From Limnohabitans sp. WS1 (GTDB taxonomy: Bacteria; Pseudomonadota; Gammaproteobacteria; Burkholderiales; Burkholderiaceae_C): a stretch of 64,000 nt of DNA. The stretch spans positions 62,001 through 126,000 of the forward strand of contig NZ_NERU01000013.1 in NCBI RefSeq assembly GCF_003063265.1. The letters run 5' to 3'. The position numbers and the translations under genes were made by a program. The number at the start of each line of letters is the position of its first letter. The stretch's first letter is position 1. Below the pieces are notes generated by a model that saw nothing but the letters and a program-made list of their open reading frames with translations, was not told the origin of the DNA and did not search any database. Below are positions 13,725-63,024 of the stretch, piece after piece.

Positions 13725-14182
13725 TGGGAGCCCCGCCCAATAGTGATGACCAACATTTTGTGGGAACCCCGCCTAGTGGGGAAGCCCTGCAGTTTGTAGA
13801 AGCCCCGCCCTCGGGGCGATTGCTCGTGGTCTGCGAGGGTGATCGCGACGAGGGCGTCGCTCCTACAAGGGGGAGGCCCTGCATTTTGTAGGAGCCCCGC
13901 CCTGGGGGCGATTGCTCGTGGTCTGCGAGGGTGATCGCGACGAGGGCGTCGCTCCTACAAGAGGGAAGCCCTGCATTTTGTAGGAGCCCCGCCCTCGGGG
14001 CGATTGCTCGTGGTCTGCGAGGGTGATCGCGACGAGGGCGTCGCTCCTACAAGGGGGAGGCCCTGCATTTTGTAGGAGCCCCGCCCCGTGGGGAATACCT
14101 GCATTTTGTAGGAGCCCCGCCCTCGGGGCGATTGTTCGTGGTCTGCGAGGGTCATCGCGACGAGGGCGTCGCTCCTACAAAA
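13725..14182. repeat. REP/BIME array A (about four inverted-pair units)
   Basis: Each unit has GTAGGAGCCCCGCCCTCGGG at one end and the inverted GACGAGGGCGTCGCTCCTAC at the other, separated by a conserved TGGTCTGCGAGGGTGAT core. Units recur about every 91 bases with the spacer AAGGGGGAGGCCCTGCATTT. Degenerate units flank the array on the left (13725-13790), and a shortened one lies at 14071-14105. Confidence 0.9.
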
Positions 14183-14193
14183 AAGGCTTGCAA

Positions 14194-14805
14194 CTAAATT
14201 TCCAGGGTGTGGGCAACCAAGCGGCCAATCAGGCGGTGGCGTACCTCAGGATCTCGGGGAAAACCGGGCATGGCCTTCAAGACAAAGTTGTAATCCAGGG
14301 TGAACAACAGTTGCGCTGCGGCAAACGCTCCCGTGTCCGATGCCCCCGTTTGGGGCAAAAACAGGGCTTGGATTTTCCGCATCAACGCCACACAAGCCAT
14401 GAAGATTTCCTTGGTCCGAGGGTCAATGGTCAGCTGTTCCTGAAAAATTTCATGCATCGCCCGATTGGCCGGAAAGTCCAGCAATTGCAAAGCTTCGGCT
14501 TGTTTGGACATGCTGTAACACACGTCTGCAGCTTGTGTGTGTTGCGGCAAATTGAGCGTGATCTCGGCCATGCCTGCAAAAACTTTGTCGCAATAACGCT
14601 CATACAGAATCAGCAAAGCCTGTTTTTTGCTCCCAAAACGCTTGAGAAAGGCGCCACGCGTGAGCTGTGCTTTGTCCGCAATCTCTTCAATCGTGACTTG
14701 TCCCAAAGACTTCTCTTGCAACAGTTCGTGCAAAGCATCCAAAAAACGCTGCTCGGTCACGATGGATCTGGACTGCAAAGGTTTTTTGTAAGTGTCAATC
14801 GTCAT
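14194..14805 (-). CDS. TetR-family transcriptional regulator
   Basis: About 203 residues from ATG 14805; a TTG at 14820 is also in frame. The HTH reads ATIEEIADKAQ-like: VTIEEIADKAQLTRGAFLKRFGSKKQAL, given here in two parts as VTIEEIADKAQLTRGAFLK and RFGSKKQALL. The C-terminal domain is helical with no recognised ligand signature. Its 3' end lies only about 12 bases from REP array A. It faces an AT-rich region and, divergently, the membrane protein of module 2, a natural target candidate. Confidence 0.83.
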   Translation of the reverse strand: MTIDTYKKPLQSRSIVTEQRFLDALHELLQEKSLGQVTIEEIADKAQLTRGAFLKRFGSKKQALLILYERYCDKVFAGMAEITLNLPQHTQAADVCYSMSKQAEALQLLDFPANRAMHEIFQEQLTIDPRTKEIFMACVALMRKIQALFLPQTGASDTGAFAAAQLLFTLDYNFVLKAMPGFPRDPEVRHRLIGRLVAHTLEI

Positions 14806-15222
14806 CAAAATAGGGCTCAAAAATACCGAACACGCAAGTTTTCAAAAAACAAGGAACAGATCGTTCCATGATCGTCAGATTATAAAAAAATCCATCAAAT
14901 TCAAACGCAAAACTCATGGACCATCAACACGGCTTGACAGCGTCAAAAAATGCATTCTTTTGGTGATGCGATCAAAAAGCACAGAAGCCCAATGCCTGTT
15001 GATTCGACCAACAACTTGGCTGGACTGATCAATTTTAAAAATTCTACAATGAATTGTAATTTTATATTTAAAATAATGGAGTTGAAATTTACATTTGACA
15101 ATGACCGCTTGATTATCAAATCTGGAATGGCTTGACTTTTCACTCAGACTTTGAATGACTCAGCGGTATTCACCGTTTATTTTGAGATCTACAATCCATC
15201 CTCAGGCCCTACCCTTGACACA
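14806..15222. promoter_or_regulatory. AT-rich divergent intergenic region
   Basis: Rich in A/T tracts, with no frame that looks like a known protein; a 61-codon frame at 14950-15135 has no supporting signals. It probably holds the promoters of the TetR gene (minus) and the membrane-protein gene (plus). Exact boxes cannot be assigned. Confidence 0.4.
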
Positions 15223-15789
15223 ATGTTGCCATCCATTTCCATCAATTCTCAAGGTCTTTTTCTTTCTTTCGTTGCAGGGTCTTTTTTTTATCTCTCTTAC
15301 AGAATCAATGAGCAAATAGGTTCTTGGGCGGTGTACACACAGGGCATCAGTCTGATTTTTTTACCGGCTGGCATCAAACACCTTTCCATTTTATTGGCCG
15401 GCGGTTGGGGTGCTTTGGGTTGCTTTGCAGCGCTGTTTTTGCTGGCCAATGAATTTTGGCACGGGATTCACCCATTCATAATCTTGCTTTATTGTTTTTT
15501 CAGCACAAGTGCCACTTGGCTGGGTGTCTGGATGAGTCTTAAAATTTTGGGCATCAGCAATGATTTGGCCAATTTGAAATTCATTCATTTGCCTCAAATG
15601 GATTTCATCACAGCGACCGTTCATGCAGTCGTTATCAATGTATTTTTTATTGTCACGTCCATGAAATCAACCCATGCATTTTCAAATTATTTTGCAATGC
15701 TGCTAGGCGACTATATAGGCAGCTTTATTGTTTTGACACTGTTTTGGGTGATGCTGCTTGTTTTTAGCAAATCACCTATTAAAAATTAA
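15223..15789 (+). CDS. Small integral membrane protein (module 2), MASE-like
   Basis: About 188 residues from ATG 15223 (a TTG at 15151 would add 24 residues). Five or six hydrophobic segments are visible (LFLSFVAGSFFYLSYRI, ISLIFLPAGIKHLSILLAG, FAALFLLANEFWHGI, then FIILLYCFFSTSA and FIVLTLFWVMLLVF). It is a paralogue of the protein at 7836-8408, sharing ISLI(Y/F)LPA and overall topology. No enzymatic domain is attached. The gene is followed after 26 bases by a winged-helix regulator on the same strand, probably cotranscribed. A sensory or transport role is possible; function is unknown. Confidence 0.65.
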   Translation: MLPSISINSQGLFLSFVAGSFFYLSYRINEQIGSWAVYTQGISLIFLPAGIKHLSILLAGGWGALGCFAALFLLANEFWHGIHPFIILLYCFFSTSATWLGVWMSLKILGISNDLANLKFIHLPQMDFITATVHAVVINVFFIVTSMKSTHAFSNYFAMLLGDYIGSFIVLTLFWVMLLVFSKSPIKN

Positions 15790-15815
15790 AATCAAATAAA
15801 AAATCAAGGAATCGG

Positions 15816-25484: not shown

Positions 25485-25560
25485 TTGTGGGAGCCCCGCC
25501 CCTTGGCGATGGGGGGGTGGTCTGCGAGGCTTTATCGCGGCGAGTGCGTCGTTCCTGCGG
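25485..25560. repeat. Single degenerate REP pair
   Basis: GTGGGAGCCCCGCCCC and the inverted ATCGCGGCGAGTGCGTCGTTCC flank the usual TGGTCTGCGAGG core. Several stem mismatches indicate decay. It lies between two genes in 25382-25654, which otherwise has nothing I recognise. Confidence 0.75.
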
Positions 25561-25654: not shown

Positions 25655-26410
25655 ATGAAACACCACCTTTACATCCTCACTGGCGCATCCCGGGGCATGG
25701 GATTGGCCATGGCCGAGCAATTGCTGCAAGCTGGCCATGCTTTGTTGTGCATCTCGCGCAACGCCAACCCCGCCTTGGAGAGTGCCGCCCAAAAAGCTGC
25801 GGTACCCCTGACGCAGTGGACCCACGATTTGGCTGACGGCACTGGGGCAGCAGCCCGCCTGAGTGACTGGCTTGCAGGCCAAAACCCCGATGACTTGGCC
25901 AGTGTCAGCCTGATCAACAATGCCGGGGTGATTCCCCCCATCTTGCCCGTGAGCCAGTCCCAGCCTGCCGATCTGGCCTGGGCCTTGCGGGTGGGGCTGG
26001 AAGCGCCCATGGCCTTGTGCGCCGCATTTTTGAGGGCCACACAGTCTTGGACTTTGCCTCGCAAAGTGCTCAATATTTCATCTGGTTTGGGGCGTTACCC
26101 CATGGCCTCACAGGCCGGCTACTGTGCGGCCAAGGCCGGCATGGACCATTTCACGCGCTGCATGGCCTTGGACGAAGCCTTGCAAGATCACGGGGCCCGT
26201 GTCTGCTCGCTGGCCCCCGGGGTCATTGACACCGACATGCAAGTGCAGATGCGCGGTGCGGCAGGCGAGGCCTTTCCTGACCAAGCCAAGTTTTTGCAAC
26301 TCAAGGCCAATGGGCAACTCAGCAGCGCCCCACAAGCGGCCGCGCAGGTGCTGGCTTTCTTGGCCCGCCCCGACTTTGGCGAGCAAGCCGTGGCCGATGT
26401 GCGTGGCTGA
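25655..26410 (+). CDS. Short-chain dehydrogenase/reductase, sepiapterin/benzil reductase-like
   Basis: 251 residues from ATG 25655 (ATG 25646 is also possible). It has the NADP-binding LTGASRGMGLAMA near the N-terminus, followed by SRNANP, which favours NADPH, and NNAGVIPP. The catalytic serine is in LNISSGLGRYP, and the tyrosine/lysine pair in GYCAAKAGMD. The C-terminus has APGVIDTDMQVQMR. The closest layout I recall is YueD/sepiapterin reductase-like carbonyl reductases. The substrate is unknown. It is followed by REP array C and then the thiolase gene. Confidence 0.85.
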   Translation: MKHHLYILTGASRGMGLAMAEQLLQAGHALLCISRNANPALESAAQKAAVPLTQWTHDLADGTGAAARLSDWLAGQNPDDLASVSLINNAGVIPPILPVSQSQPADLAWALRVGLEAPMALCAAFLRATQSWTLPRKVLNISSGLGRYPMASQAGYCAAKAGMDHFTRCMALDEALQDHGARVCSLAPGVIDTDMQVQMRGAAGEAFPDQAKFLQLKANGQLSSAPQAAAQVLAFLARPDFGEQAVADVRG

Positions 26411-26504
26411 TGCACAGCGCTGTGCATCTGGCCCCGTCAAGTTTCAAGTCAAAGGCATGTCATGGCCTGTGCGTCAGTGTGGAAGCCGCCCAATGGCGAA
26501 TGCC

Positions 26505-27135
26505 GCATTTTGCAGGAGCCCCGCCCTCGGGGCGATGGGTCGTGGTCTGCAAGGGTGATCGCGACGAGGGCGTCGCTCCTACAAGGGGATGGCCCCCGCG
26601 TTTTGTAGGAGCCCCGCCCTCGAGGCGATGGGTCGTGGTCTGCGAGGGTGATCGCGACGGGGGCGTCGCTCCTACAAGGGGAAGGCCCCCGCATTTTGTA
26701 GGAGCCCCGCCCTCGGGGCGATGGGTCGTGGTCTGCAAGGGTGATCGCGACGAGGGCGTCGCTCCTACAAGGGGATGGCCCCCGCATTTTGCAGGAGCCC
26801 CGCCCCCGGGGCGATTCTGGGTGGTCTGCGAGGGTGATCGCGACGGGGGCGTCGCTCCTACAAGGGGATGGCCCCCGCGTTTTGTAGGAGCCCCGCCCCC
26901 GGGGCGATTCTGGGTGGTCTGCAAGGGTGATCGCGACGGGGGCGTCGCTCCTACAAGGGAAAGGCCCCCGCATTTTGTAGGAGCCCCGCCCTCGGGGCGA
27001 TTCTGGGTGGTCTGCAAGGGTGATCGCGACGAGGGCGTCGCTCCTACAAGGGGATGGCCCCCGCATTTTGTAGGAGCCCCGCCCTCGGGGCGATTCTGGG
27101 TGGTCTGCAAGGGTGATCGCGGCGAGGGCGTGACA
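26505..27135. repeat. REP/BIME array C (seven units, 93-base period)
   Basis: Units begin near 26512, 26605 and then every 93 bases. Each pairs a CCCCGCCCTCGGGG-type hairpin with an inverted CGACGAGGGCGTCG-type hairpin. The last unit loses its terminal GCTCCTAC and runs into unique sequence at about 27130. Because the period is divisible by three, both strands stay open, producing a spurious frame that joins the thiolase gene. Confidence 0.92.
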
Positions 27136-27252
27136 AAAATCATCGACACAGTCCCCGTAGGCCCAGCTTGTCAGTCCCTTGTAGCCATTGACCCTGACAC
27201 TGTTTGGGTCATCAATCCTTATGTTGATTTTTTTAATTCTGGAGACATTCCC

Positions 27253-28437
27253 ATGAGCCGTGAAGTTGTTGTTGTCAGCGGTGTGCGCACCGCCATTGGT
27301 ACCTTTGGCGGCAGCCTGAAGGACATCGCACCCACCGAGCTGGCCGCACAAGTTGTGCGCGAAGCCCTGTCCCGCGCAGGCACCGAAGGTCAAGACGTCG
27401 GCCATGTGGTGTTTGGCCATGTGGTCAACACCGAACCCAAAGACATGTATTTGTCGCGCGTGGCGGCCATCAACGGCGGCTGCGCCGAGGGCACGCCCGC
27501 GTTCAACGTGAACCGCCTGTGCGGCTCGGGCCTGCAAGCCATCGTCAGCGCCAGCCAGTCCATCATGCTGGGCGACTGCGACATCGCCATTGGCGGCGGC
27601 GCAGAAAACATGAGCCGCGCCCCTTATGCCAGTCTGGCCACCCGCTTTGGCGCACGCATGGGCGACACCAAGATGATCGACATGATGATCGGCGCACTGC
27701 ACGACCCCTTCCACAACATCCACATGGGCGTGACGGCAGAAAACGTCGCCGCCAAATACGGCATCACCCGCGAGATGCAGGACGCATTGGCGCTGGAAAG
27801 CCACAACCGTGCTGAACGCGCCACAACAGAGGGCCGCTTCAAAGACCAGATCATGCCGGTCATGCTGAAAAGCAAAAAAGGCGAAGTGGCCTACGCCACC
27901 GACGAGCATTTCCGCCCTGGCTGCAAGCTCGAAGACATGGCCAAGCTCAAGCCCGTGTTCGTGAAAGAAAACGGCACCGTGACCGCTGGCAACGCCTCGG
28001 GCATCAACGATGCGGCCGCCGCCGTGGTGCTGATGGAAGCCGGTGCGGCCAAGGCCCGTGGAGCCAAGCCTATGGCCCGCTTGGTGGGTTACGCCCACAC
28101 CGGTCTGGACCCCAAAATCATGGGTGTGGGCCCCATCTCGGCCACACAAGCCGTGCTCAAGAAAACCGGCCTCACGGTGAACGACCTGGACGTGATCGAA
28201 GCCAACGAAGCCTTTGCCGCGCAAGCCTGCGCTGTGACCCGCGAGCTGGGCCTGGACCCCGCCAAGGTCAACCCCAACGGCTCGGGCATTTCGCTGGGTC
28301 ACCCCATTGGCGCGACCGGTGCACTGATCACCGTGAAAGCCCTGTACGAGTTGCAGCGGGTAAACGGCCGCTACGCCTTGGTGACCATGTGCATCGGCGG
28401 CGGTCAGGGCATCGCGGCCATTTTTGAGCGCATGTAA
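27253..28437 (+). CDS. bktB: Beta-ketothiolase (acetyl-CoA acetyltransferase), BktB-like
   Basis: 394 residues from ATG 27253. Thiolase catalytic residues are all visible: nucleophile C90 in VNRLCGSGLQAIVSA, H350 in SLGHPIGATG and C380 in VTMCIGGGQG. The N-terminus (SREVVVVSGVRTAIGTFGGS) and C-terminus closely follow Cupriavidus BktB as I remember it. BktB condenses acetyl-CoA with acetyl- or propionyl-CoA for polyhydroxyalkanoate synthesis and also works in degradation. No phaB/phaC is nearby, so a catabolic role is equally possible. The preceding open frame back to 26410 is REP-derived and not part of the gene. Confidence 0.93.
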   Translation: MSREVVVVSGVRTAIGTFGGSLKDIAPTELAAQVVREALSRAGTEGQDVGHVVFGHVVNTEPKDMYLSRVAAINGGCAEGTPAFNVNRLCGSGLQAIVSASQSIMLGDCDIAIGGGAENMSRAPYASLATRFGARMGDTKMIDMMIGALHDPFHNIHMGVTAENVAAKYGITREMQDALALESHNRAERATTEGRFKDQIMPVMLKSKKGEVAYATDEHFRPGCKLEDMAKLKPVFVKENGTVTAGNASGINDAAAAVVLMEAGAAKARGAKPMARLVGYAHTGLDPKIMGVGPISATQAVLKKTGLTVNDLDVIEANEAFAAQACAVTRELGLDPAKVNPNGSGISLGHPIGATGALITVKALYELQRVNGRYALVTMCIGGGQGIAAIFERM

Positions 28438-28444
28438 AGCCAGT

Positions 28445-28935
28445 GCCCCGCGTTTTGTGGGAGGCCCCGCATTTTGTGGGAGCCCTGCATTTTGTGGGAG
28501 CCCCGCCCTCGGGGCGATTGTTGGTGGTCTGCGAGGGTGATCGCGACGGGGGCGTCGTTCCTACAAGCGGATGGCCCCGCATTTTGTGAGGTCCCCGCGT
28601 TTTGTTGGAGCCCCGCATTTTGTGGGAGCCCCGCATTTTGTGGGAGCCCCGCCCTCGGGGCGATGGGTCGTGGTCTGCGAGGGTGATCGCGACGAGGGCG
28701 TCGCTCCTACAAGGGGACGGACCCGCATTTTGTGAGGGCCCCGCGTTGTGGGGGAGCCCCCGCATTTTTTGTGAGGGCCCCGCATTTTGTGGGAGCCCCG
28801 CCCTCGGGGCGATTGTTGGTGGTCTGCGAGGGTGATCGCGACGGGGGCGTCGCTCCTACAAGGTGACAGGCACGCATTTTGTGAGGGCCCCGCGTTTTGT
28901 GGGAGCCCCGCATTTTGTGAGGGCCCCGCATTTTT
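28445..28935. repeat. REP region D (mixed complete and half units)
   Basis: Three complete inverted pairs (about 28494-28566, 28640-28712, 28790-28862) are embedded in many short reiterations of GGGAGCCCCGCATTTTGTG-like half units. This shows local slippage of the spacer and head region. It separates the thiolase gene from the TRAP transporter gene. Confidence 0.88.
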
Positions 28936-28938: not shown

Positions 28939-31119
28939 TCAACGATCCCGGTGGGCCCACTGGTACGCCAGCACTGGCAGCATGAAAGCCACACCCAGCA
29001 AACTGATTTTCAGGCCCGGCGCAATCAGGCACAGAGCACCCAAGGCGCACAGGGCGCGTTCCCAACCCTTCATCACGGTCATCAGGTAACCACTGAGCGC
29101 CGCAGCCAGCGCCACGATGCCCAGCACACAACCGGTGAAGGTGATGGCAAAGTCGGCCCAGGTGAAGCCCTTGGCCACCAGCAGCAAGGAGGGTGAGAAC
29201 ACAAACACAAAGGGCACCAGCACTTTGGCCAGGCCCAGGCGGAACGCCATGTTGCCGGTTTTGAACGGGTCACCGCCAGCCATGCCCGCCGCCGCATAAG
29301 CGGCAAGCGCCACCGGCGGCGTGATGTCGGCCAGCACGCCGTAATAAAACACAAAGAAGTGCGCCACCAGTGGCTCCACCCCCAGCTGCACCAAAGTGGG
29401 TGCGGCCACCGTGACCATGATGATGTAGTTGGCCGTGGTCGGGATACCGCAGCCCATCAAGATGCAGACGATGCCGGTCATGAACAGCGCTGCCAACAGC
29501 GTCAAGGACTTGCTGTCGGCCATGAAGGCGGGCAACCAGTCCATCAAGAAAGCCGAGATCATCTGCGCCCAGCCGGTGATGATGAAGCTGATCTTGAAGC
29601 CCACACCTGTGAGCGTGACCACACCAATCACAATGCCCACCGTGGCCGCCGCAGCGCCCACCGCCAGCGCGTATTTGGCCCCGGTTTCAAAGGCCTCCAG
29701 CAGCACGGCGTTGTCAATGCGACCCACCAAGCCCAGCCACTTTTGCCCGGCCCAAATCAGGGCCACGCCCAGCGCCAAAAAGCCCAGCTTGATGGTCTCG
29801 CCGTCGCTGCCCCAGTCCACAAACGCCACCAGCGCCAGCAGCACATGCAGCACCACCAGCAACAGCCAGTTGGTGCTGCGGTTGCCCCACACCGTGGTGC
29901 TCAGGCCCACGATCATGCATGACGTGATGCCGGTGAACGCCGCCAAATAAGGCGTGCGGCCCGACACCAAAATGGCGATCAGCAAAGCCAGTGGAATCAA
30001 AGTGGGCCAGCGCTGCTTGAAGGACTCGCGCAGCTTGGGCATTTCTTCTTCGGTCAGGCCCCGCAAGCCATAGCGCTTGGCCTCGAAGTGCACCTGCATG
30101 AACACACCAAAGAAATGCATGAAGGCCGGCACGATGGCCGCAGCGATGATGGTCTGGTAGGACACGTTCAAAAACTCGACCATCAAAAATGCCGCCGCAC
30201 CCAACACAGGCGGCGTGATCTGCCCGCCTGTGGACGATGCGGCCTCGACCGCGCCCGCAAACTCACGGCGGTAGCCCACCCGGATCATGGCCGGGATGGT
30301 GAGCGAGCCCACGGTGACCGCATTGGCCACCGAAGAACCGCTGAGCGTGCCGAACATGGCCGAGCCGAACACGCTGACCTTGGCCGGACCACCGGCGTAA
30401 CGCCCGGCCACGGTGGAGGCGATGTCCAGAAACAGCTGCCCCAAACCAATGCGCGTGGCCAACACACCAAACAGCACAAAGTGAAAAACATAAGTCGCCA
30501 CCACACCCACCGCCACACCATAAATGCCTTGGCTCGTCAGGTACTGGTGGTTGATCATCTGGCTCCAGCTCGCGCCCGCGTGCTTGAGCAAACCTGGGAA
30601 ATACGGCCCGGTCAAGGCATAGGCCGTGAAGCCCAGCGCAATCAAAGGCAAGGGCCAGCCCATGGAGCGGCGTGTGGCTTCGAGCAAGGTGACAAACAGG
30701 ACCGAGCCCATGACCACGTCCATCGTGTCCGGGTTGCCTACCCGAAAGGCCAGGTCGTCAAACACGTAAGGGATGTACATCACGCTGGCCGCGCAGGCCA
30801 GGCCCAGCAACCAGTCAATCAGTGGCACACCGCCAATGCTCAGGCGACTTTTGGACACGGTGCTGCTGGCGTCTGACTTGGTCGCCGCAAACACCAGAAA
30901 AATCAGCCCCAGCACAAAAGCCAGGTGAACACCCCGGTGGGTGGTCTCGCGCAGCAGGCCAAAACCAGCTGTGTAGAAATGGAAACCCGACAGGATGATG
31001 AGCAGCCATTTCACGATCACCGTGGCGGGCGGCAATGTGGGCCGAAAGCGCATTTCGGGGTCGAACTTTTCTTCGAGTTCTTGCAAATTGCGCACATTGC
31101 GCTCGAGGGCTTCGGCCAT
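28939..31119 (-). CDS. TRAP transporter fused permease (4TM/12TM), TAXI type
   Basis: 726 residues from ATG 31119 (AAGGACAGG upstream). It fuses the small four-helix DctQ-like subunit and the large DctM-like subunit, the arrangement paired with TAXI binding proteins. Conserved permease segments: FGSAMFGTLSGSSVANAVTV, EAASSTGGQITPPVLGAAAF and MGCGIPTTANYIIMVTVAAP, then VLADITPPVALAAYAAAG. It should import a substrate with sodium or proton symport across the inner membrane. The binding protein is encoded just upstream on the same strand (31339-32292), with a degenerate REP between them. The substrate is unknown. Confidence 0.93.
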   Translation of the reverse strand: MAEALERNVRNLQELEEKFDPEMRFRPTLPPATVIVKWLLIILSGFHFYTAGFGLLRETTHRGVHLAFVLGLIFLVFAATKSDASSTVSKSRLSIGGVPLIDWLLGLACAASVMYIPYVFDDLAFRVGNPDTMDVVMGSVLFVTLLEATRRSMGWPLPLIALGFTAYALTGPYFPGLLKHAGASWSQMINHQYLTSQGIYGVAVGVVATYVFHFVLFGVLATRIGLGQLFLDIASTVAGRYAGGPAKVSVFGSAMFGTLSGSSVANAVTVGSLTIPAMIRVGYRREFAGAVEAASSTGGQITPPVLGAAAFLMVEFLNVSYQTIIAAAIVPAFMHFFGVFMQVHFEAKRYGLRGLTEEEMPKLRESFKQRWPTLIPLALLIAILVSGRTPYLAAFTGITSCMIVGLSTTVWGNRSTNWLLLVVLHVLLALVAFVDWGSDGETIKLGFLALGVALIWAGQKWLGLVGRIDNAVLLEAFETGAKYALAVGAAAATVGIVIGVVTLTGVGFKISFIITGWAQMISAFLMDWLPAFMADSKSLTLLAALFMTGIVCILMGCGIPTTANYIIMVTVAAPTLVQLGVEPLVAHFFVFYYGVLADITPPVALAAYAAAGMAGGDPFKTGNMAFRLGLAKVLVPFVFVFSPSLLLVAKGFTWADFAITFTGCVLGIVALAAALSGYLMTVMKGWERALCALGALCLIAPGLKISLLGVAFMLPVLAYQWAHRDR

Positions 31120-31239
31120 ACCTGTCCTTCACAACACAAGGCACTGTAGGGCCTTGTTCACAACACACAGGGCGCCATGGCGCCCTGTTCAAACATCATC
31201 GCCCACGGGGTGGGCTCCTACAAAATCAATACACCTGCC

Positions 31240-31320
31240 ACCTTGTGGGAGCCCCGCCCCCGGGGCGATCGGTGGAGATTTGCGAGGGTCGATCACAGCA
31301 AGGGCACCGCGCCTGCACCA
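31240..31320. repeat. Degenerate REP pair between TRAP genes
   Basis: GTGGGAGCCCCGCCCCCGGGGCGAT is intact (31246-31270), but the partner hairpin has decayed (GATCACAGCAAGGGCACCGCGCC). It lies inside the presumed TAXI-TRAP operon. Confidence 0.7.
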
Positions 31321-31338
31321 GGCTCGGTGCACCCCGCA

Positions 31339-32292: not shown

Positions 32293-32462
32293 GACATTCC
32301 TTGGAGTGTGAATTACGAAAGAAGGTTAAAAACCAACAGCCTAGGGTGTAGCACAACTTGTGCCCATTTTGAGTTCAAACAGGCCCACATCAGGGTTGAC
32401 GCTGATATCGAAGACCCTGATAAGGCAAGCGCTAAACTGGCTGTTTTTGTCAAAGGTGTCTC

Positions 32463-33689: not shown

Positions 33690-33852
33690 TATCGCGGCGG
33701 GGGCGCCGCGCTTACAGGTGACGACCTCCATTTTGTGGGAGCCCCGCCCTCGGGGCGATGGGTAGTGGTCTGCGGGGCTCTATCGCGACGGGGGCGTCGC
33801 TCCTACATCGTGGGGGCGCCGCTCCTACATCGTGGGGGCACCGCTCCTACAA
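33690..33852. repeat. REP region F with stem variants
   Basis: Contains a GGCG/CGCC-type half hairpin (33690-33716), one full pair (33736-33808) and two further GGGGGCGCCGCTCCTAC-like heads repeated directly at 33809-33850. Confidence 0.85.
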
Positions 33853-40893: not shown

Positions 40894-40904
40894 TTGGAAG
40901 AACT

Positions 40905-41162
40905 GATTTGCAGGAGCCCCGCCCTCGGGGCGATGGGTGGTGGTCTGCGATGCTTTTCGCGACGAGGGCGTCGCTCCTACAAGGGGACTTCCCTTGTGGG
41001 AGCCCCGCCCTCGGGGTGATGGGTGGTGGTCTGCGAGGCCTTTCGCGACGGGGGCGTCGCTCCTACAGGGGGAGGTGTTCTGCATGTTGTGGGAGCCCCG
41101 CCCTCGGGGCGATGGGTGGTGGTCTGCGAGGGTTATCGCGACGAGGGCGTCGCTCCTACCGC
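40905..41162. repeat. REP/BIME array G (three units)
   Basis: Three inverted pairs (about 40908-40981, 40995-41070 and 41089-41160) share a core TGGTGGTCTGCGA. The spacer AAGGGGACTTCCCTTG between the first two matches that of array H. It lies directly against the 5' end of the KpsC-like gene. Confidence 0.9.
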
Positions 41163-41174
41163 AAGCCATCCGGC

Positions 41175-42271: not shown

Positions 42272-42898
42272 TATTGCAGGAGCCCCGTCCTCGGGGCGAT
42301 GGCATTTTGTGGGAGCCCCGCCCTCGGGGCGATGGGTAGTGGTCTGCGGGGCTTTTCGCGACGAGGGCGTCGCTCCTACAAGGGGACTTCCCTTGTGGGA
42401 GCCCCGCCCTCGGGGCGATGGGTGGTGGTCTGCGGGGGTTATCGCGACGAGGGCGTCGCTCCTACAAGGGGTCTTCCCTGGTGGGAGCCCAGCCCTCGGG
42501 GCGACGGGTAGTGGTCTGCGAGGCTTTTCGCGACGAGGGCGTCGCTCCTACAAGGGGACTTCCCTTGTGGGAGCCCCGCCCTCGGGGCGATGGGTCGTGG
42601 TCTGCGAGGCTTTTCGCGACGAGGGCGTCGCTCCTACAAGGGGACTTCCCTTGTGGGAGCCCCGCCCTCGGGGCGATGGGTCGTGGTCTGCGAGGCTTTT
42701 CGCGACGAGGGCGTCGCTCCTACAAGGGGACTTCCCTTGTGGGAGCCCCGCCCTCGGGGCGATGGGTCGTGGTCTGCGAGGCTTATCGCGACGGGGGCGT
42801 CGCTCCTACAAGGGGACTTCCCTTGTGGGAGCCCCGCCCTCGGGGCGATGGGTGGTGGTCTGCGAGGCTTTTCGCGACGGGGGCGTCGCTCCTACGGG
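42272..42898. repeat. REP/BIME array H (half unit plus seven units, 86-base period)
   Basis: After a lone half unit at 42275-42302, seven inverted pairs recur every 86 bases from about 42307. The spacer AAGGGGACTTCCCTTGTGGG is almost invariant. The third unit carries a one-base stem change (CCCAGCCCTCGGGG). Long open frames across this stretch are REP translations. Confidence 0.93.
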
Positions 42899-44867: not shown

Positions 44868-45065
44868 AAGCGTTTTCGCGGCGGGGGCGCCGCTCCTACA
44901 GGAAGGTGGCGCGAAATTGGCGAATGCCCTACAGTTTGCTGGAGCCCTCATTTTTGTGGGATCCCCGCAGTTTTTGGGAGCCCCGCAGTTTGTGGGAGCC
45001 CCGCCCTCGGGGCGATGGGTGGTGGTCTGCGAGGCATTTCGCGGCGGGGGCGCCGATCCTACAAA
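44868..45065. repeat. REP region I with GGCG/CGCC stem variant
   Basis: TTCGCGGCGGGGGCGCCGCTCCTAC at 44876-44900 and again a close copy near 45037-45061 represent a third stem type. Between them lie partial CCCGCAGTTTGTGGGAGCC reiterations and one CCCCGCCCTCGGGGCGAT hairpin (45000-45017). Confidence 0.85.
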
Positions 45066-45110: not shown

Positions 45111-46304
45111 TCAATTGGTCACCGCCCGCAGGGTCAAAATCGGCCCGGCCACCGAACCCACAATGTTCAGAAACTTCTGCAGCTCGGCTGCTGGCGCATT
45201 GGACACGTACACCACATCTTTGTGGCGCATGGGAAAGTCCTGAGCTACAAAAAACATGGCCGGGTCCTTCAGGTCCACCCGGTATACCACCGGCAGCTTG
45301 CCCTGTGCCTGTCCAGCCGCTATAGCGCCCGTGGCCGACAAGGCCGCTGCGTCTTCAAATCGGAACACAAACACCCCCCGTGCATCGGCCCGGGCGTCCT
45401 GCAAACCACCCAAGCGGCCAAGGGCCTGGGCCAGTGTGATGCCCTGCGACTCAAAATTCAGTTCTTCATTGCGCCCCGTGGCACCCAGCGCCGTGAGGCT
45501 GAAAGGCTGGTGCACCGCAGTGACCACATCGCCCGGGTGCAGGGCAATGTTCTGCAAGGGGTCGGCAATGATGGTGTCCAGCGGCAAGGACAGCACCTGG
45601 CTGCCCCGCGTGATCTGCAGCGACATCTTGGCCACCGGCTGACGCACCCCACCCGCTGCCGCCAGCGCATCCAGCAGACGCTCGCCCTTGGCAGTGAGCG
45701 GCATGCGCAGGCTCTGCGCCACCTCGCCCACCACTGTCACATTGCTGGTGGCGTTGCGCGTCACGCGCACCATCACCTGCGGCTGGTTGGCCTTGCCCTT
45801 GAGTCGCTGGGTGATGTCGGCCTCGATGTCTTGAGGCAAACGCCCCGCCGCTGGCACAGCACCGGCAAAAGGCACATTGATCGTGCCCGCTGCGTTCACC
45901 ATCTGCTCGGGAAAGGCCGTCAGCCGCGCCGCCGAAGAACCGGCCCTCGGGTCCAACACCGCAGTGCCAAACAGGCTGGCCGGAGGGGCTTCCCACACCG
46001 ACACCTCCAGCACATCGCCCGCACCCACCACGAGGCCCGGGCTGCGGGTCTGACCCCAGCTTTCAGAAAACAGCGCACGGCGCTGGCTGGCCTTGACCTG
46101 ACGGGCTACTAACTCAGTGACGTCCACTACCTTAATGGCGTTTGCTCGACCATCGGCCTGAATCTTTGCAACAGAGTTGACCTGCTCGGTACTAGGACCG
46201 GCAGATGAGAGCCAACCTGATTGGGTGCCGCAGCCCGTGAGCAGGCCAAAACAGAGGGCAGACACCAACGTGGCAGATTGACGTGGATAGAACTGAAAAC
46301 GCAT
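45111..46304 (-). CDS. Polysaccharide export outer-membrane lipoprotein (CtrA/BexD/Wza-like)
   Basis: 397 residues from ATG 46304. A lipoprotein signal ends LLTGCGTQ with C25 acylated. The Poly_export domain begins VVGAGDVLEVSVWEAPPASL and has FPEQMVNAAGTINVPFAGAV followed by GRLPQDIEADITQRLKG. SLBB beta-grasp repeats follow (VTVVGEVAQSLRMPL, LHPGDVVTAVH). It forms the octameric outer-membrane channel for ABC-exported capsule, working with KpsE and KpsM/T encoded upstream. Size is like CtrA/BexD rather than E. coli KpsD. The end of the protein is followed by REP region I. Confidence 0.9.
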   Translation of the reverse strand: MRFQFYPRQSATLVSALCFGLLTGCGTQSGWLSSAGPSTEQVNSVAKIQADGRANAIKVVDVTELVARQVKASQRRALFSESWGQTRSPGLVVGAGDVLEVSVWEAPPASLFGTAVLDPRAGSSAARLTAFPEQMVNAAGTINVPFAGAVPAAGRLPQDIEADITQRLKGKANQPQVMVRVTRNATSNVTVVGEVAQSLRMPLTAKGERLLDALAAAGGVRQPVAKMSLQITRGSQVLSLPLDTIIADPLQNIALHPGDVVTAVHQPFSLTALGATGRNEELNFESQGITLAQALGRLGGLQDARADARGVFVFRFEDAAALSATGAIAAGQAQGKLPVVYRVDLKDPAMFFVAQDFPMRHKDVVYVSNAPAAELQKFLNIVGSVAGPILTLRAVTN

Positions 46305-46344
46305 TGCAAAAAACAAAACTAACTCCTGATAAACCATATATTGA

Positions 46345-47922
46345 TCATGCGTCCACACCTGCGGTTTTGCGGGAAAACAAGTCCCGCCAGAATGCCTTGA
46401 GCGGGTGGGCAGACCGCCACGCGAGGCGAACACGCTCTGCCTCTAGTTCTTCCCTCAGCTCAGCAACGCATGCTTCATAGGTTTGCTTAGCATCCCAATA
46501 CGCTGCATTAATTTGTATAAAACTTGTTTTAAGAGCAATGAACTCGCCATGCAGACTCTCATACTGACGCTGTGCTTGCTCTGCTTGCTTGGCTTGTTCG
46601 TTTTTTAAGAAAGCTATTTGCACTGCGTGCTCTGCTTGCCCACCTACCAACTTGCTTTGGCTTGCCTCAAAAGAGCCTGCCAATTCAAGGCTCTGGGCCA
46701 TTAACAACTCACTCAGTTTGTCAGTCAGCTCAGCCCTCATGCCAACCAGGTTCAGCTCTAGTTTGTCCAATCGCTGCACCTCACGATCTTCTTGCTCAAC
46801 GCTCATCTGAGTCAACTGGTCGAATCGTGCGGCATGTTGCAAATGCCAAAACTCCAGCTGCTTTTGGCTAGCCTCGATAGCTTGGGTCAAAGCGTCCCCG
46901 TTATCTGCAACGAATTCGGCTATCCCTGCCAAGACAGCGGCCTGCTCCCTCCCCCAGACTTTTGCCTCTTGCAAAGCAGCCAACGCAGCCCTATCAGCAG
47001 TAGGGTGTCGCCCCTCTGATTTACCATTACCCAAGTAATGCGCGAACGCGTTAACCCCAGCAGCAGCAACATCCGGATAGTTGCTCAAATAGAAATCTTC
47101 ATCAAAAAGCAAGGGCTCCGCATTAAGCGGCGCTGCTAAATCAGGCATGCATTGCAGCGGTGCCACCAGATCCTGCCCATCAAGGCCTAGTGGGCCAACA
47201 TCTACAAAAGCCTCTTGCCCACGTACTATTCGTGGCCCAAGTGTATTGTTCGGTGCAGCAGCCTTGCGGACCACACAAATAGAGTTTAAAAACTCTACTG
47301 AATGAATCTGGGCTAGCAGATCTTCTGAAAACTCTGCGATGTCCTGTTTTGAAAACTCCGTCAACAACTCGCGCCGACTCATTGGAAGGCCCCAAGATTG
47401 ATGGTTCACGATGTCACAAAGGGACTTGAAAAAATGGATAGATGAAAGGGGATTGTGGAGCCCACCCTGATAATTCTGCCAATAGCTGCAATGCAAGTCT
47501 TCAACGATGTAAAGGCCACCTTCAGACAGACGTTCAAAATACAAAGCGAACGACTTAACGATATCGCTCGCTGTATGAGAACCGTCATCGATGATGATGT
47601 CGAAAGTCGCGGAAATACTCAATATTTGGTCTCTTGTCTCAACCGTACTCGCATCGCCCACCACCACATGCACGCGGCTGTCCGCGTAAGTCAAATTGCG
47701 GCAACCCTCGTCGATATCACAGCCCACCAGTACACGGGCTTGCGCAAAATAATCACTCCAGACCTCTAGCGAGCCGCCATTCTGAACGCCGATTTCAAGA
47801 AGGCAAATCGGTTGATCGCGATAAGGTTCAAACAGCCGAGCGTACTCGCGCACATACAAACTCCATTTGTCGGTGGTCTTGCCAGTGTGCGTTTCAATAA
47901 GTTGCTCAAGAAGGGACATCAT
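46345..47922 (-). CDS. SAM methyltransferase with polysaccharide-type repeat and coiled coil
   Basis: 525 residues. The N-terminal class I methyltransferase has the glycine-rich SAM loop ICLLEIGVQNGGSLEVWSDY, an acidic VGCDIDEG and FDIIIDDGSHTASD. Around 270-307 is one copy of a repeat (DFYLSNYPDVAAAG..FAHYLGNGKSEGRHP) that also occurs four times in the 1236-residue protein at 51847-55557. From about 330 to 500 it is a long coiled coil (KLELNLVGMRAELTDKLSEL). This resembles chain-length-regulating methyltransferases such as WbdD by organisation, but that is inference. ATG 47922 directly follows the GT4 stop codon. Confidence 0.82.
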   Translation of the reverse strand: MMSLLEQLIETHTGKTTDKWSLYVREYARLFEPYRDQPICLLEIGVQNGGSLEVWSDYFAQARVLVGCDIDEGCRNLTYADSRVHVVVGDASTVETRDQILSISATFDIIIDDGSHTASDIVKSFALYFERLSEGGLYIVEDLHCSYWQNYQGGLHNPLSSIHFFKSLCDIVNHQSWGLPMSRRELLTEFSKQDIAEFSEDLLAQIHSVEFLNSICVVRKAAAPNNTLGPRIVRGQEAFVDVGPLGLDGQDLVAPLQCMPDLAAPLNAEPLLFDEDFYLSNYPDVAAAGVNAFAHYLGNGKSEGRHPTADRAALAALQEAKVWGREQAAVLAGIAEFVADNGDALTQAIEASQKQLEFWHLQHAARFDQLTQMSVEQEDREVQRLDKLELNLVGMRAELTDKLSELLMAQSLELAGSFEASQSKLVGGQAEHAVQIAFLKNEQAKQAEQAQRQYESLHGEFIALKTSFIQINAAYWDAKQTYEACVAELREELEAERVRLAWRSAHPLKAFWRDLFSRKTAGVDA

Positions 47923-58430: not shown

Positions 58431-59750
58431 TTACACACGGTCATATGAGTCGTAAAAGCAATCGCCGTCGGCTTGGGCTTGGGCTGGGGTTTGAGCTGGA
58501 TGTGGTGCTGGGTCTCGAGCAAGCACCTCATGCCAGCGCAAAGGCTCGGCACGCAGCGCATAAACGCTGGCGGGTACTTGGGTGAGGTTTTTCATTTGCG
58601 CCAAAAACTTTTGGGTTTCTGCCAGGCAAGCGGGGCGGCCTTGTGTCCAAAACTGGTCCAGCTCGCCTGTGAAGCTCAGCTGCGGTTGTTTGTAAAGGGC
58701 TTGGCCCAACACCATGAGCGGTGCACCCCGCTCCAGTGCTTGAAGGCCCACCGTGCTGTTGATGAGCACGACGCCAGCCGAGTGCTGAGCCAAATCGGGC
58801 GTGTCACCTTCGACCATGTGGTGCACGCGGTGCGCCATGCCCAGCTCTTGCGCCAAACCAGCAATGAGTTCGCCATGCCCGGGGCCACCCCGCACATGTG
58901 GGTGCTGCCTGAACACCAGCAAGCTGTGCGCCGGGGCGTGCTGCGCAAAAGACTCCATGACGCGAATCACAAATTCGGCGTTGTTGGCAAAGTCGCTGTG
59001 GTGAACGATTTGCGCATCACCATCGTGCTGCAAAGGCACAAAGAAATAGGGACGGCTGGCTTTGTGGGCAAAAAGATGCCGTTGCAGTCGATGACTGGGG
59101 TGCAAGTGCGTGAGCTTGCGCAGCCACGAGCGAATCCAATAGTGGGCGTAGAAACGCGGGTCGCTGATGCGGTGGTGTTGGTAAAGCTCGAATTCGTGTC
59201 GCGCTTGCCACATGGCTTGGTAATGCAGGCTGGCCTGCCAGGCCATTTTTTGAAAATGGCTTGGCGAGATGTCGGGCACGATCGAGCCCGCTTGACCCAG
59301 GGGTGCCCATTGGTAACGCTCCAGCGTTTGCGAAAAACCATTCACACCGCCCAGTTCCATGGTGATGAAACCGGGGCGAAAGTACCCCTCTTCCAGCACC
59401 ACCACGTCAATGCCCTGGCTTTTGCACAACTCAATAGCGGCATGGTGATATTTGCGCGACTGGCCAAACAAAACCACACAGTCAACTTGGTGTGTGTGCA
59501 ACAGTTGCCCAAAAAAAGCCGGCCAGTCGTGCAGTGCTTGCTTGAACGCTATAGGTTCGAGCACTTGGCTGTCGTGCAGGTCTCCCCCCTGAAAAGCCAC
59601 GCGCCGCACTTGTGCACCTTGCTGCATGAGCCAAGTGGCCAAACGATCAAAAAAAGCCCCCACCGGCCCTTGCAAAAGCAAAACACTCCGGGCGCAGTTC
59701 AAGCGCAACAAGGCGGGATTGCAGCCTGAGCTGACTTTCTCAAATTTCAT
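58431..59750 (-). CDS. kpsS: KpsS-like capsule polysaccharide Kdo transferase
   Basis: 439 residues from ATG 59750. Family segments: VLLLQGPVGAFFDRLATWL, VLFGQSRKYHHAAIELCKSQ, VVLEEGYFRPGFITMELGG, then FVPLQHDGDAQI, VFRQHPHVRGGPGHGEL and VVLINSTVGLQALERGAPLM. KpsS adds the first beta-Kdo to lyso-phosphatidylglycerol; KpsC extends it. Here it leads the kpsS-E-M-T block, while the KpsC-like gene is 18 kb away. It is the first gene after a 1.2-kb AT-rich/REP region that should hold the promoter. Confidence 0.88.
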   Translation of the reverse strand: MKFEKVSSGCNPALLRLNCARSVLLLQGPVGAFFDRLATWLMQQGAQVRRVAFQGGDLHDSQVLEPIAFKQALHDWPAFFGQLLHTHQVDCVVLFGQSRKYHHAAIELCKSQGIDVVVLEEGYFRPGFITMELGGVNGFSQTLERYQWAPLGQAGSIVPDISPSHFQKMAWQASLHYQAMWQARHEFELYQHHRISDPRFYAHYWIRSWLRKLTHLHPSHRLQRHLFAHKASRPYFFVPLQHDGDAQIVHHSDFANNAEFVIRVMESFAQHAPAHSLLVFRQHPHVRGGPGHGELIAGLAQELGMAHRVHHMVEGDTPDLAQHSAGVVLINSTVGLQALERGAPLMVLGQALYKQPQLSFTGELDQFWTQGRPACLAETQKFLAQMKNLTQVPASVYALRAEPLRWHEVLARDPAPHPAQTPAQAQADGDCFYDSYDRV

Positions 59751-60150: not shown

Positions 60151-60154
60151 TTGT

Positions 60155-60897
60155 GTAAGCGACGCCCTCGTCGCGATCAAGCCTCGCAGACCACCCACCA
60201 TCGCCCCGAGGGCGGGGCCCCTACAAAATGCAGGGCAATCCCCCGTAGGAGCGACGCCCTCGTCGCGATCAAGCCTCACAGACCACCCACCATCGCCCCG
60301 AGGGCGCGGCACCCACAAAATGCTGGGCGCTTCCCTTGTAGGAGCGACGCCCTCGTCGCGATCAAGCCTCGCAGACCACCCACCATCGCCCCGAGGGCGG
60401 GGCCCCTACAAAATGCAGGGCATTCCCCCCGTAGGAGCGACGCCCTCGTCGCGATCAAGCCTCGCAGACCACCCACCATCGCCCCGAGGGCGGGGCTCCT
60501 ACAAAATGCAGGGCAATCCCCCGTAGGAGCGACGCCCTCGTCGCGATCAAGCCTCACAGACCACCAAGAATCGCCCCGAGGGCGGGGCTCCTACAAAATG
60601 CAGGGCAATCCCCCGTAGGAGCGACGCCCTCGTCGCGATCAAGCCTCGCAGACCACCCACCATCGCCCCGAGGGCGGGGCTCCTACAAAATGCGGGGCAC
60701 CCCCGTAGGAGCGACGCCCTCGTCGCGATCAAGCCTCGCAGACCACCCACCATCGCCCCGAGGGCGGGGCTCCTACAAAATGCAGGGCACTCCCCCGTAG
60801 GAGCGACGCCCTCGTCGCGATCAAGCCTCGCAAACCACCCACCATCGCCCCGGGGGCGGGGCTCCTACAAAATGCAGGGCACTCCCCCCGTAGACGC
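60155..60897. repeat. REP/BIME array J (eight units, opposite orientation)
   Basis: Eight inverted pairs spaced about 91-93 bases, now starting with the GTAGGAGCGACGCCCTCGTC hairpin and ending with ATCGCCCCGAGGGCGGGGC. The core is CAAGCCTCGCAGACCACCCA and the spacer AAAATGCAGGGCAATCCCC. First and second units have mutated outer arms (GCCCCTAC, GGCACCCAC). No gene lies in this stretch. Confidence 0.93.
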
Positions 60898-60959
60898 GAG
60901 TTGCCGGTCGTGTTGACGCTTGCCCTGTAAGCGATGGCTTGTGGCCATGTAGGCCAAGC

Positions 60960-62513
60960 TCAAAAGCTCACATCCACCATCACACTGGCCCGCAGGTTTT
61001 TGCGCACAGCACTGCCTTGCACAGCGCTGCGTGACCAATGCGTGTAGGCCAGTTCTGGCGTCAAACTCAAGGATTTAAAGGCCAAGGTTTGCGCTGCATT
61101 GAACGCCCACATGCCCCCATGCGGTGCTGTGACGCGCGGGTCATAGGCACCCATGCTGGTCTGAATTCGTCCGGCATGGATTTTGAAAACACGCAAATTT
61201 TCTGCATCCATCCAGCCCAAGGTCATCACCTTCGAGCCCGAGCCCTGTGAGCTACCCACCCAACGCGCCCCCTGGGTGTAGCCCTGCGTGTAAACCCCGT
61301 TCACATAGCCCGGAAACGGTGACTTGCTGTCCCACGGCAGGCTGTAGACGTTGGTATTGGCCCACTCGGCAAACACACGGTAGCGACCCTGACCGAACGA
61401 ACTTTCGACGCCCCACAAACTCATGAACTTGTAAGGCAGCGGCAGCTTGCCCGCCGCGTCTTCACCCATCCACTGCGTGTAAGCCGCACAACTGCCCAGC
61501 CACTCGCCCCATGCCTTGGGGCACGACAAACGCAAGTCATAGCCTGCGATCTGGCCACTGCTGTCCACAAACGAATCAGTGGCGTTTTTGTTCAGCTCTT
61601 GCCCAAAGAAAGCCTTCACAAAATTGGACGCGCCACTCGGACGCCCCGCCCCGCCCGTTTGCAAACCCCGGCTGAATCCCAACTCTAGCCAAGGCTGTGG
61701 CTTCATGGTCAAGCGCATGCCCGAAAACAAAAAACCACTGGGCTGCTGGCTGACCACCTGCGGGTCTTGCGCCTTGGCCACAAACACATCCAGATTCCAA
61801 GGCCCCATCCAGCTCAACCAAGCACTGTCCGACGCCGCCACGCTGCCACGCTGCAAACCCACCCCCGTCCAAGACGGGTTGTTGTGCCCATTGACCAAAC
61901 TGCTCTGCCAGCCCGGCCCCCACCAATGCCGTTGGCTAAAAGCCTGCACATTCCAACCCTCAACACCCACAACCGCCGCACTGCCATCCGGGCGAAGCTG
62001 CACATGCCCCTCGGTGCCATGGCCACTGAATCGGGTTTGCAATGAATTCGGGCTCAGCTCGGCGCGGCCGCCCACACGCACCGCCGCCGTGACCCCATCG
62101 GCAGCCTGGCCCCAGCGCCACTCTTCAGACTCCAGCTGCACACTGCTGCCCGGCGTGTAGTTGTCGTCAAACCCATGAAGTGCCTCAACCCGCGACCTGG
62201 CCTGTGCCCGCAAACGCCAGCCCTCTTGCCGATCGCGCAACTCGCGCAGCACCTCCTCCCGCGCCCACGCCACCTGTTGCGCAATGGCATCCGGCTGCTG
62301 GCGCGGCAAGCGGGTCAAAGCCTGCTCAACGGCCGCTGTGGGCAAGGGCCAATGGCTGGTGGTCAACTGCAAACCCGCATGGTCCGACAACCACTGCAAG
62401 TGGTGACGCGCCTGCCAACTCGGGGAATAAGGAGCACTGGCAGGCACTTGGGCCATGGCGGGCAGGGTCAACCACAGCGCCGCCGCCATCACTGAAAACT
62501 TGTCAATGCACAT
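60960..62513 (-). CDS. wzi: Wzi-family outer-membrane capsule assembly protein
   Basis: About 517 residues from ATG 62513 (ATG 62489 or upstream starts are possible). A signal peptide ends at AMAQ. The helical N-terminal domain has WLSDHAGLQLTTSHWPLP and ALTRLPRQQPDAIAQQVAW. The beta-barrel begins at about 150 with amphipathic strands and the Wzi hallmark FSQRHWWGPGWQSSLVNGHN. It closes SVMVDVSF with the terminal phenylalanine of outer-membrane barrels. Wzi anchors or organises capsule at the surface. It is separated from kpsS by REP array J, so it is probably a separate transcript. Confidence 0.87.
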   Translation of the reverse strand: MCIDKFSVMAAALWLTLPAMAQVPASAPYSPSWQARHHLQWLSDHAGLQLTTSHWPLPTAAVEQALTRLPRQQPDAIAQQVAWAREEVLRELRDRQEGWRLRAQARSRVEALHGFDDNYTPGSSVQLESEEWRWGQAADGVTAAVRVGGRAELSPNSLQTRFSGHGTEGHVQLRPDGSAAVVGVEGWNVQAFSQRHWWGPGWQSSLVNGHNNPSWTGVGLQRGSVAASDSAWLSWMGPWNLDVFVAKAQDPQVVSQQPSGFLFSGMRLTMKPQPWLELGFSRGLQTGGAGRPSGASNFVKAFFGQELNKNATDSFVDSSGQIAGYDLRLSCPKAWGEWLGSCAAYTQWMGEDAAGKLPLPYKFMSLWGVESSFGQGRYRVFAEWANTNVYSLPWDSKSPFPGYVNGVYTQGYTQGARWVGSSQGSGSKVMTLGWMDAENLRVFKIHAGRIQTSMGAYDPRVTAPHGGMWAFNAAQTLAFKSLSLTPELAYTHWSRSAVQGSAVRKNLRASVMVDVSF

Positions 62514-62683
62514 GCTAAAATTTAATATTACAAAAGTAACATTTATTTTAAACATGAATACATTGGACAACGTATTCAAAGCAAGGATCAGCCGCTAAAG
62601 CATGACGGTCGCCGTGTCAGGCCCGGCAGCCTTGACACCCGAGCCCTGTGCATGTCGGGGCAGAAATTTCAACAGGAGGACGC

Positions 62684-62914
62684 GTGAAACTGTTTCGCTT
62701 ATTTCAAAAAAACCCGTCCTCCAAGACCCAAGACATCAGCTGCTGCGAGCTGACGCAGTTTGACTGCAACCAAGGCCGCAACTGCCCCCTGCGGCAAAAG
62801 CCCCAGCGTCTCCACGCGTCAAGCCCTACACCCCCAAGCCCAGCCACCCGTGCAGCGCCGTGTGCCACAGCAGCAATAGACGGCGGACCATCGAATACGC
62901 CTGCCAAGGGGTGA
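62684..62914 (+). CDS. Small Cys-containing protein, unknown
   Basis: 76 residues from GTG 62684, chosen because AGGAGG lies four bases upstream at 62674-62679. The first half has four cysteines (ISCCELTQFDCNQGRNCPLR), a pattern seen in short Burkholderiales proteins; the second half is Pro/Ala-rich and may be variable. It may bind a metal. It is divergent from wzi. Function is unknown. Confidence 0.5.
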   Translation: MKLFRLFQKNPSSKTQDISCCELTQFDCNQGRNCPLRQKPQRLHASSPTPPSPATRAAPCATAAIDGGPSNTPAKG

Positions 62915-62944
62915 CATCGCCGCTTCTCAAAGCATGAAGCTTTC

Positions 62945-63024
62945 TTTGTGGGAGCGGCGCCCTCGCCGCGATAGAGCCTCGTAGACCACCACCCATCGCC
63001 CCGAGGGCGGGGCTCCCACAAAGC
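62945..63024. repeat. Single REP pair with GGCG/CGCC stem
   Basis: GTGGGAGCGGCGCCCTCGCC pairs with the inverted CCCCGAGGGCGGGGCTCCCAC across the core TCGTAGACCACCACC. The outer arms carry GTGGGAG/CTCCCAC instead of GTAGGAG/CTCCTAC on both sides, a compensated double change. Confidence 0.9.

Follow-up and report, generated by a model that had tools for sequence, protein, structure and literature searches.

The 64,000-nt stretch of the Limnohabitans sp. WS1 genome analysed here (the window, on contig C5) carries a family of short hairpins that are repetitive extragenic palindromes (REPs) of the GTAG type, many of them joined as opposed pairs, or REPINs (REP doublets forming hairpins); the family is related below to the gene of a REP-associated tyrosine transposase (RAYT) on another contig, C45. 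The single hairpins, hereafter arms, were assigned by their four variable stem bases to types A (GACG), B (CCCG), C (GGCG) and D (CCAC), allowing ≤3 mismatches; these types are defined by us, and other stems escape the typing. In the window, 73 arms were found in 10 clusters, together with a degenerate eleventh site (Table 1), so the "at least eleven sites" of the initial annotation, which was made from the sequence of the window, proved about right. The sequence GTAGGAGC alone occurred exactly 49 times in the 64 kb, against a mean of 0.56 and a maximum of 3 in 100 shuffles. Within the window, seven of the 10 clusters lay between the main open reading frames (ORFs) and the other three within an ORF, near its 5′ end, in two cases ahead of the known domain of the encoded protein. 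No Rfam family matched the window at the gathering score, and ARAGORN found no tRNA in it.

Table 1. Sites of the repeat family in the window, with arm types and orientations, the means of detection and the neighbouring ORFs.
Position	Strand	Feature	Evidence	Context
13796..14178		four REPINs, 8 arms, B+ A- alternating, period 92	repeat search and arm typing	flanking ORFs with TctC and TetR_N domains
25485..25556		degenerate REPIN	repeat family D10; absent from typed arms	
26512..27094		13-arm array, alternating B+ and A-, period 93	repeat search and arm typing	inside 5′ part of ORF 26410-28437, before thiolase domain (starts at residue 286)
28494..28859		three B+A- REPINs, 6 arms	repeat search and arm typing	between ORF 26410-28437 and DctM ORF 28939-31119
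31245..31269	+	lone B arm	arm typing	within 5′ end of ORF 31177-32502 (putative start)
33691..33806		three arms, C- B+ A-	arm typing	3′ of FAD oxidoreductase ORF ending at 33680
40910..41159		three B+A- REPINs, six arms, spacing 86 and 93	repeat search and arm typing	inside 5′ part of ORF 39847-41169, before Capsule_synth domain (residues 158-405)
42276..42895		array, 15 arms, period 86	repeat search and arm typing	between ORFs 41175-42164 and 42913-44076
44875..45062		three arms, C- B+ C-	arm typing	between ORF 42913-44076 and ORF 45111-46433
60153..60868		eight REPINs, 16 arms, A+ B- alternating, period 90-93	repeat search and arm typing	between ORFs 58431-59750 and 60960-62579
62948..63019		one C+B REPIN, both heads GTGG	repeat search and arm typing	between ORFs 60960-62579 and 63157-63990

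The arms share the layout GTRG-GA-6 bp-CCCY-6 bp-GAT, and thus possess the head, the unpaired dinucleotide, the palindrome with a short loop and the 3-nt tail of the GTAG-1 REPs. Genome-wide (4,604,141 bases in 48 contigs), the pattern GTRGGAGC-N12-GCGAT gave 981 matches, 502 forward and 479 reverse, which is the high copy number of a GTAG REP; its reversed control gave none in the same 4.6 Mb. Statistics on stems, dimers and heads were taken from a sample of 1,628,135 bases (1.63 Mb) rather than from all 981 copies, comprising the whole of contigs C1, C45 and C2, the region C5:22001-126000 that holds the window, and a stretch of at most 20 kb on each of 20 other contigs. The 380 exact arms of the sample were distributed over 85 clusters and carried the stems CCCG/CGGG (186), GACG/CGTC (111), GGCG/CGCC (22) and CCAC/GTGG (8), the remainder being mainly one-base derivatives of these. 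The first three are the stem sets already recognised in the initial annotation, and the fourth occurs elsewhere in the genome. The loop had been described as a constant CCCT but is CCCY, with C at positions 1, 2 and 3 in 371, 376 and 376 of the 380 arms, and T in 261 and C in 118 at position 4.

The compensatory variation of the stems that the initial annotation had pointed out was confirmed, all four variable pairs being Watson-Crick in 330 of the 380 exact arms. Taking each stem only once from any one cluster (180 rows), 93% of the cells paired, whereas 1000 shuffles of the stem 3′ halves averaged 64% and reached at most 69%; when each of the 32 distinct stems was counted once, 74% paired, compared with 50% after shuffling (maximum 62.5%). 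The raw covariation owes much to the amplification of a few stem types, and the stronger argument is that in related lineages a head and tail of the same kind enclose paired stems of other sequence. Neither stem bases varying independently of their partners nor an element confined to this locus, the two outcomes named beforehand as contrary, was found, given the covarying stems and the 981 copies.

Typing with ≤3 mismatches recovered 546 arms in the sample, among which 222 dimers had their heads outside: 188 A+B, 33 B+C and one D+D. Thus 221 of the 222 combined one CCCG/CGGG arm with one GACG or GGCG arm, the remaining one being CCAC+CCAC, and no A+A, B+B, C+C or A+C dimer with heads outside occurred among the 222. 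When sites were binned at 1.5 kb, the A+B, B+C and D+D dimers fell into 65, 17 and 1 bins, respectively, and the copies are therefore not independent. The gap within these dimers was 21 or 22 nt in 208 of 222, which gives opposed REPs at a preferred distance, as in a REPIN, whereas the 162 neighbours with heads inside were separated by 5 to 60 nt; the heads-outside dimer is therefore the unit. Within the dimers of this genome, the sequence of the 21-22 nt spacer is also conserved. The claim that every unit consists of two hairpins was not confirmed, as the window contains a lone arm (Table 1) and the sample contains 41 same-strand neighbours within 60 nt of each other.

A paired change of the outer arms from GTAG to GTGG had also been reported, and it is present in the last REPIN of Table 1, but genome-wide the two head forms are uncoupled: the site-deduplicated dimers, omitting one with C in the head, counted A/A 41, A/G 52, G/A 7 and G/G 10 (odds ratio 1.13, p = 1.0), and splitting the heads by stem type gave p = 0.08 in the opposite direction and p = 0.11 in the same direction. 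Taken together, the initial description of the element and its sites stood for the stems, the number of sites and the covariation, and failed for the two-hairpin rule, the loop and the coupling of heads. In 12 further genomes of the genus, the dimer pattern matched 260 dimers; the 75 that were listed, sorted by eye, comprised 53 of A or C with B, 8 D+D, 5 of A or C with a CGCG-type arm, and 9 others including one A+A and two A+C. From the sample and these 75 dimers, it follows that D dimers are equal-stemmed and that A/B/C dimers are nearly always unlike.

The genome contains three matches to Y1 transposases, on C18, C45 and C2, and none of them lies in the window, as had been stated from its sequence. 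The protein encoded on C45 (locus L002, C45:150342-150785, 147 aa) scored 149 bits to the NCBIfam model REP_Tyr_transpos (NF047646, cut-off 80), its best solved relative is the TnpA-REP 4er8 (3.7e-8), and the HLH motif (H68-L69-H70) and Tyr122 characteristic of RAYTs are invariant in an alignment of 34 sequences. The gene (L002:1438-1881) is flanked by inverted copies of its own REP, with same-family arms reaching to L002:1294 upstream and beginning at L002:1907 downstream. C45 has 106 exact arms, 63 of them inside the 20-kb tile around the gene. The hairpin-flanked Y1 gene whose search had been proposed in the initial annotation was thus located, in support of its REP/RAYT reading. Since a pairwise alignment found no group 2 C-terminal extension, the protein resembles group 3 of Corneloup et al. 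(2021, PMC8266576). An assignment to the IS200/IS605 insertion sequences was rejected, as the protein scored 32.8 bits to NF033573, below the cut-off of 55, and the gene is the single one of its kind in the genome, the next match being 35% identical, and not multicopy. Just 3′ of the gene, at L002:2115-2482, about ten same-strand B arms form a direct tandem with a 40-nt period, unlike the usual inverted dimers.

The two other Y1 proteins have different surroundings. A second RAYT (locus L003 on C2, 166 aa, 181 bits to NF047646) is flanked at L003:1080-1365 and 1863-2000 by a different family of REPs, GTAGGTCGG...CCGAC; matches to GTAGGTCGG-N6..16-CCGAC numbered 74 in the sample, and a mechanical finder reported similar hairpins at 5 of 11 genus loci of this RAYT type (L204-L214). 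The Y1 protein on C18 (231 aa) scored 80.8 bits against the family cut-off of 80 and has no GTRG repeat of this sort nearby; the majority of 60 genomes of the genus encode a comparable protein, about 240 aa long. The CCAC/GTGG arms of the genome resemble the cognates of other Limnohabitans RAYTs (L123, L133 and L216), and they may be orphans, because no matching RAYT was recognised among the three Y1 matches.

Related RAYT loci were compared in a set of 82, consisting of the best 80 of at least 560 confirmed in named genomes, L002 and a further locus, L055. GTRG hairpins were found within 500 bp of the RAYT in 71 of the 82 loci, and on both sides in 60, at a density of 5.16 per kb near the gene versus 0.59 per kb beyond 1.5 kb. 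Among the matches listed for named genomes, the nearest RAYTs (79-91% identity) belong to Limnohabitans and unclassified Comamonadaceae assemblies. The mechanical finder reported dimers at 48 of the 82 loci and none at 34; after removal of the ties L159 and L169, and of L107, which was dropped from the tree for a stop in frame, 45 loci could be scored, of which 31 had unlike and 14 equal arms, where "unlike" includes dimers with one differing stem position and some results, such as those for L160, L175 and L176, may be due to chance, given the odd stems or gaps behind them. The stem pairs differ by lineage, with GCCAGC+GCTTGC in L. planktonicus, GCGCAG+GGCCAG in Thioalkalivibrio, GCGGCG+GGCCCG in Thiobacillus and Rhodoferax, and GCCCCG+GCGGCG in P. 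oleovorans; GCCCCG+GCGACG and GCCCAG+GCCGAG are further unlike pairs. Equal-arm loci include types with a TT loop, e.g. L055, L168 and L170. On a tree of 81 rows and 147 columns built by a quick method, with 30 of its 78 inner branches open, the arm state changed at least seven times, and it is therefore neither fixed nor random; because 14 of the 45 loci are equal-armed, unlike arms are no requirement of the family. At two genus RAYT loci the stems are again of two unlike kinds, GCCCAC and GCGCAC at L215, GGCCGC and GCGAGC at L217.

Across 200 genomes of the family, 28 had at least one match to the repeat pattern, but the copy number was 981 in the genome studied, 34 in another of the same genus (G087) and at most 2 in every other; single matches are at chance level, since the reversed control also gave 1-2 matches in seven genomes. 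Besides the gene on C45, only one RAYT match was found in these 200 genomes (G052, 50% identity), the others scoring under 46 bits. Within the genus, the stricter CCCY form was present in 31 of 60 genomes. RAYTs were there classed by us as of this type when scoring 100-160 bits to NF047646; the 16 genomes with such a RAYT all carried the repeat (median 15.5 copies), as did 15 of the 44 without one (median 0), and the difference was significant by a Mann-Whitney test that ignores kinship and counts the 25-nt form only (p = 4.5e-6, or 1.2e-5 without the genome studied). Those 15 genomes refute the stronger proposition that the repeat is found only together with the RAYT. A recent horizontal gain of the RAYT, to which the search of the family had pointed, is made less probable by the 16 of 60 genomes that have one of this type. 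The window additionally holds a short tandem tract of TGTCCC units (2506-2601) and, inside ORF 9905-12226, three 300-nt stretches about 80% alike (10517-11857).

These elements are very probably REPINs composed of opposed GTAG-type REPs and copied in trans by the RAYT of C45. As proposed here, a REPIN would be a non-autonomous mobile repeat made of two opposed GTAG-type REP hairpins with the GTRG heads outside and a 21-22 nt spacer, and the RAYT, a Y1/HUH single-strand transposase that presumably is or was active, would bind the folded GTRG strand, reading loop and head and tolerating any paired stem. The last step is proposed by analogy with two group 3 TnpA-REPs, for which this has been shown in vitro (PMC8266576). 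Several points weigh against this interpretation. Movement of the REPINs is itself only deduced, and 11 of the 82 related loci lack a hairpin near the gene. The association between RAYT and repeat within the genus takes no account of kinship and is limited to the 25-nt form. Three genus genomes, G243, G252 and G220, carry 257, 117 and 115 copies without a RAYT classed as this type, so that the copies outlive or do not need the RAYT, or the assemblies miss the gene.

The unlike arms of the dimers were considered separately. With DNA parameters, the 209 distinct dimers of the genome gave -14.4 kcal/mol for two hairpins versus -14.9 kcal/mol for one long hairpin, whereas the long form reached -34.7 kcal/mol when the arms were made equal in silico. 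With unlike arms the two energies nearly coincide, which leaves the element undecided between the two folds. It may be, at somewhat less than an even chance, that unlike stems keep each arm able to fold alone, avoiding one 25-bp hairpin. A further, tentative proposal, which we consider less likely than not, is that the difference is a maintained design: in the RAYT lineages of four groups (Limnohabitans, Thiobacillus, Thioalkalivibrio and Pseudomonas mendocina/oleovorans), selection would prevent the stems of a REPIN from becoming alike, irrespective of the bases involved. Were it true, the arms would stay separate hairpins for the transposase, the element would never become a long perfect palindrome, and REPIN movement would be independent of a whole-element hairpin. 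Two results speak against a role for the difference between arms: the minimum-energy fold was still the long hairpin in 120 of the 209 dimers (two hairpins in 86, another form in 3), and 14 of the 45 scorable loci have equal arms. An escape of heterodimers from SbcCD was already put forward as a possibility in section 14 of Di Nocera et al. (2013, PMC3733652); the present analysis contributes the energy balance and the lineage comparison.

With about even chances, the unlike arms are instead a frozen accident, in which a founder REPIN happened to be unlike and was copied whole, its difference being unselected. A REPIN copied as a unit would pass the arms of the founder to its copies, and group 3 TnpA-REP largely tolerates the stem bases in vitro (PMC8266576, section 17), so that arms can drift apart. 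The equal-arm lineages (14 of 45) and the CCAC+CCAC dimers (8 among the 75 genus dimers listed, a hand tally) fit such an origin as well. Yet drift alone should scatter the stems within a genome, while three stems account for 319 of the 380 exact arms; moreover, unlike arms recur across lineages with different stem pairs, and at least seven changes of state were placed on the tree, with the quick method and many open forks noted above.

Copying by the RAYT was further weighed against a role in RNA, according to which the hairpins are kept as terminators, for mRNA protection or for regulation, the covariation reflects RNA folding and the RAYT concerns their origin only. Such a role would suit clusters lying between genes or at gene starts, and the abstract and section 5 of PMC3733652 suggest RNA action for many GTAG REPs. 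Among the deduplicated single-mismatch stems read on the GTRG strand, T.G mismatches (21) exceeded A.C (11; 7 others), after an earlier count of 18 versus 9. This excess, which is not significant (p = 0.11), leans towards folding of the GTRG strand, short of proof, and would also fit the folding of that strand as single-stranded DNA. No Rfam family was detected in the window, and long tandem arrays, copies in both orientations and copies around the RAYT are better accounted for by mobility, which makes an RNA role as the primary explanation improbable. The periods of 86-93 at several window sites might suggest plain tandem repetition or an error of assembly, but this is hardly credible in view of the 85 clusters in the sampled stretches, of the copies on many contigs and of the same arms beside RAYT genes in named, separately assembled genomes.

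RAYTs and their REPs are widespread domesticated transposase systems, and section 14 of PMC3733652 notes that many REP dimers have unlike partners without obvious explanation. Hundreds of dimers that follow the rule, with one cognate RAYT, together with relatives whose stem pairs differ or whose arms are equal, offer a natural comparison of the substrate, one long hairpin versus two short ones.

No description of a REP family in Limnohabitans or Comamonadaceae was found in the open-access literature searched, which excludes subscription journals and preprints, and no strictly heterodimeric family with the GTAG-1 layout was found in the open-access text searched, figures excluded. Compensatory GTAG stems are already in print (section 5 of both PMC3733652 and PMC2817692), and the layout, the covarying stems, the dimers and the RAYT linkage are all known for GTAG REPs. 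The family is like the Thauera system (Nunvar et al., 2010, PMC2817692) in its betaproteobacterial RAYT and in the repeats amassed near the gene (section 8 there), but the Thauera repeats differ in their stems; that RAYT was reported to be missing from the other betaproteobacteria, many of which now contribute close relatives to the matches listed here. Table 1 of the same paper displays Pseudomonas REP forms. The group 3 REPtrons of Stenotrophomonas and Marinomonas (PMC8266576) are alike in their short RAYT without the C-terminal extension, in their perfect palindromes and in a constant loop with a variable stem, the loop here being CCCY. Enterobacterial bacterial interspersed mosaic elements (BIMEs; GTAG-3 in PMC3733652) are likewise dimers of unlike REPs, but their arms are bulged and differ in loop length, while here two central pairs of perfect 6-bp stems differ. 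The Pseudomonas REPINs (Bertels and Rainey, 2011, PMC3116915) share the inverted REP doublet as unit, the RAYT-specific repeat class and the clusters; they differ in that identical REPs are reportedly paired, rarely mixed, and a long hairpin is predicted for the consensus, whereas here the arms are unlike and a long fold is hardly favoured over two short ones. In P. fluorescens, excised REPINs have been looked for by deep sequencing (same paper). The GTAG-1 REPs (PMC3733652) share the GTRG head, two unpaired bases, a perfect stem, a short loop and a 3-nt tail, as well as covarying stems, dimers, clusters and RAYT linkage. The same paper reports heterodimers in GTAG-3 and GTAG-24, but mostly homodimers for GTAG-1 in P. 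putida and P. entomophila, in contrast to the 221 heterodimers among 222 found here.

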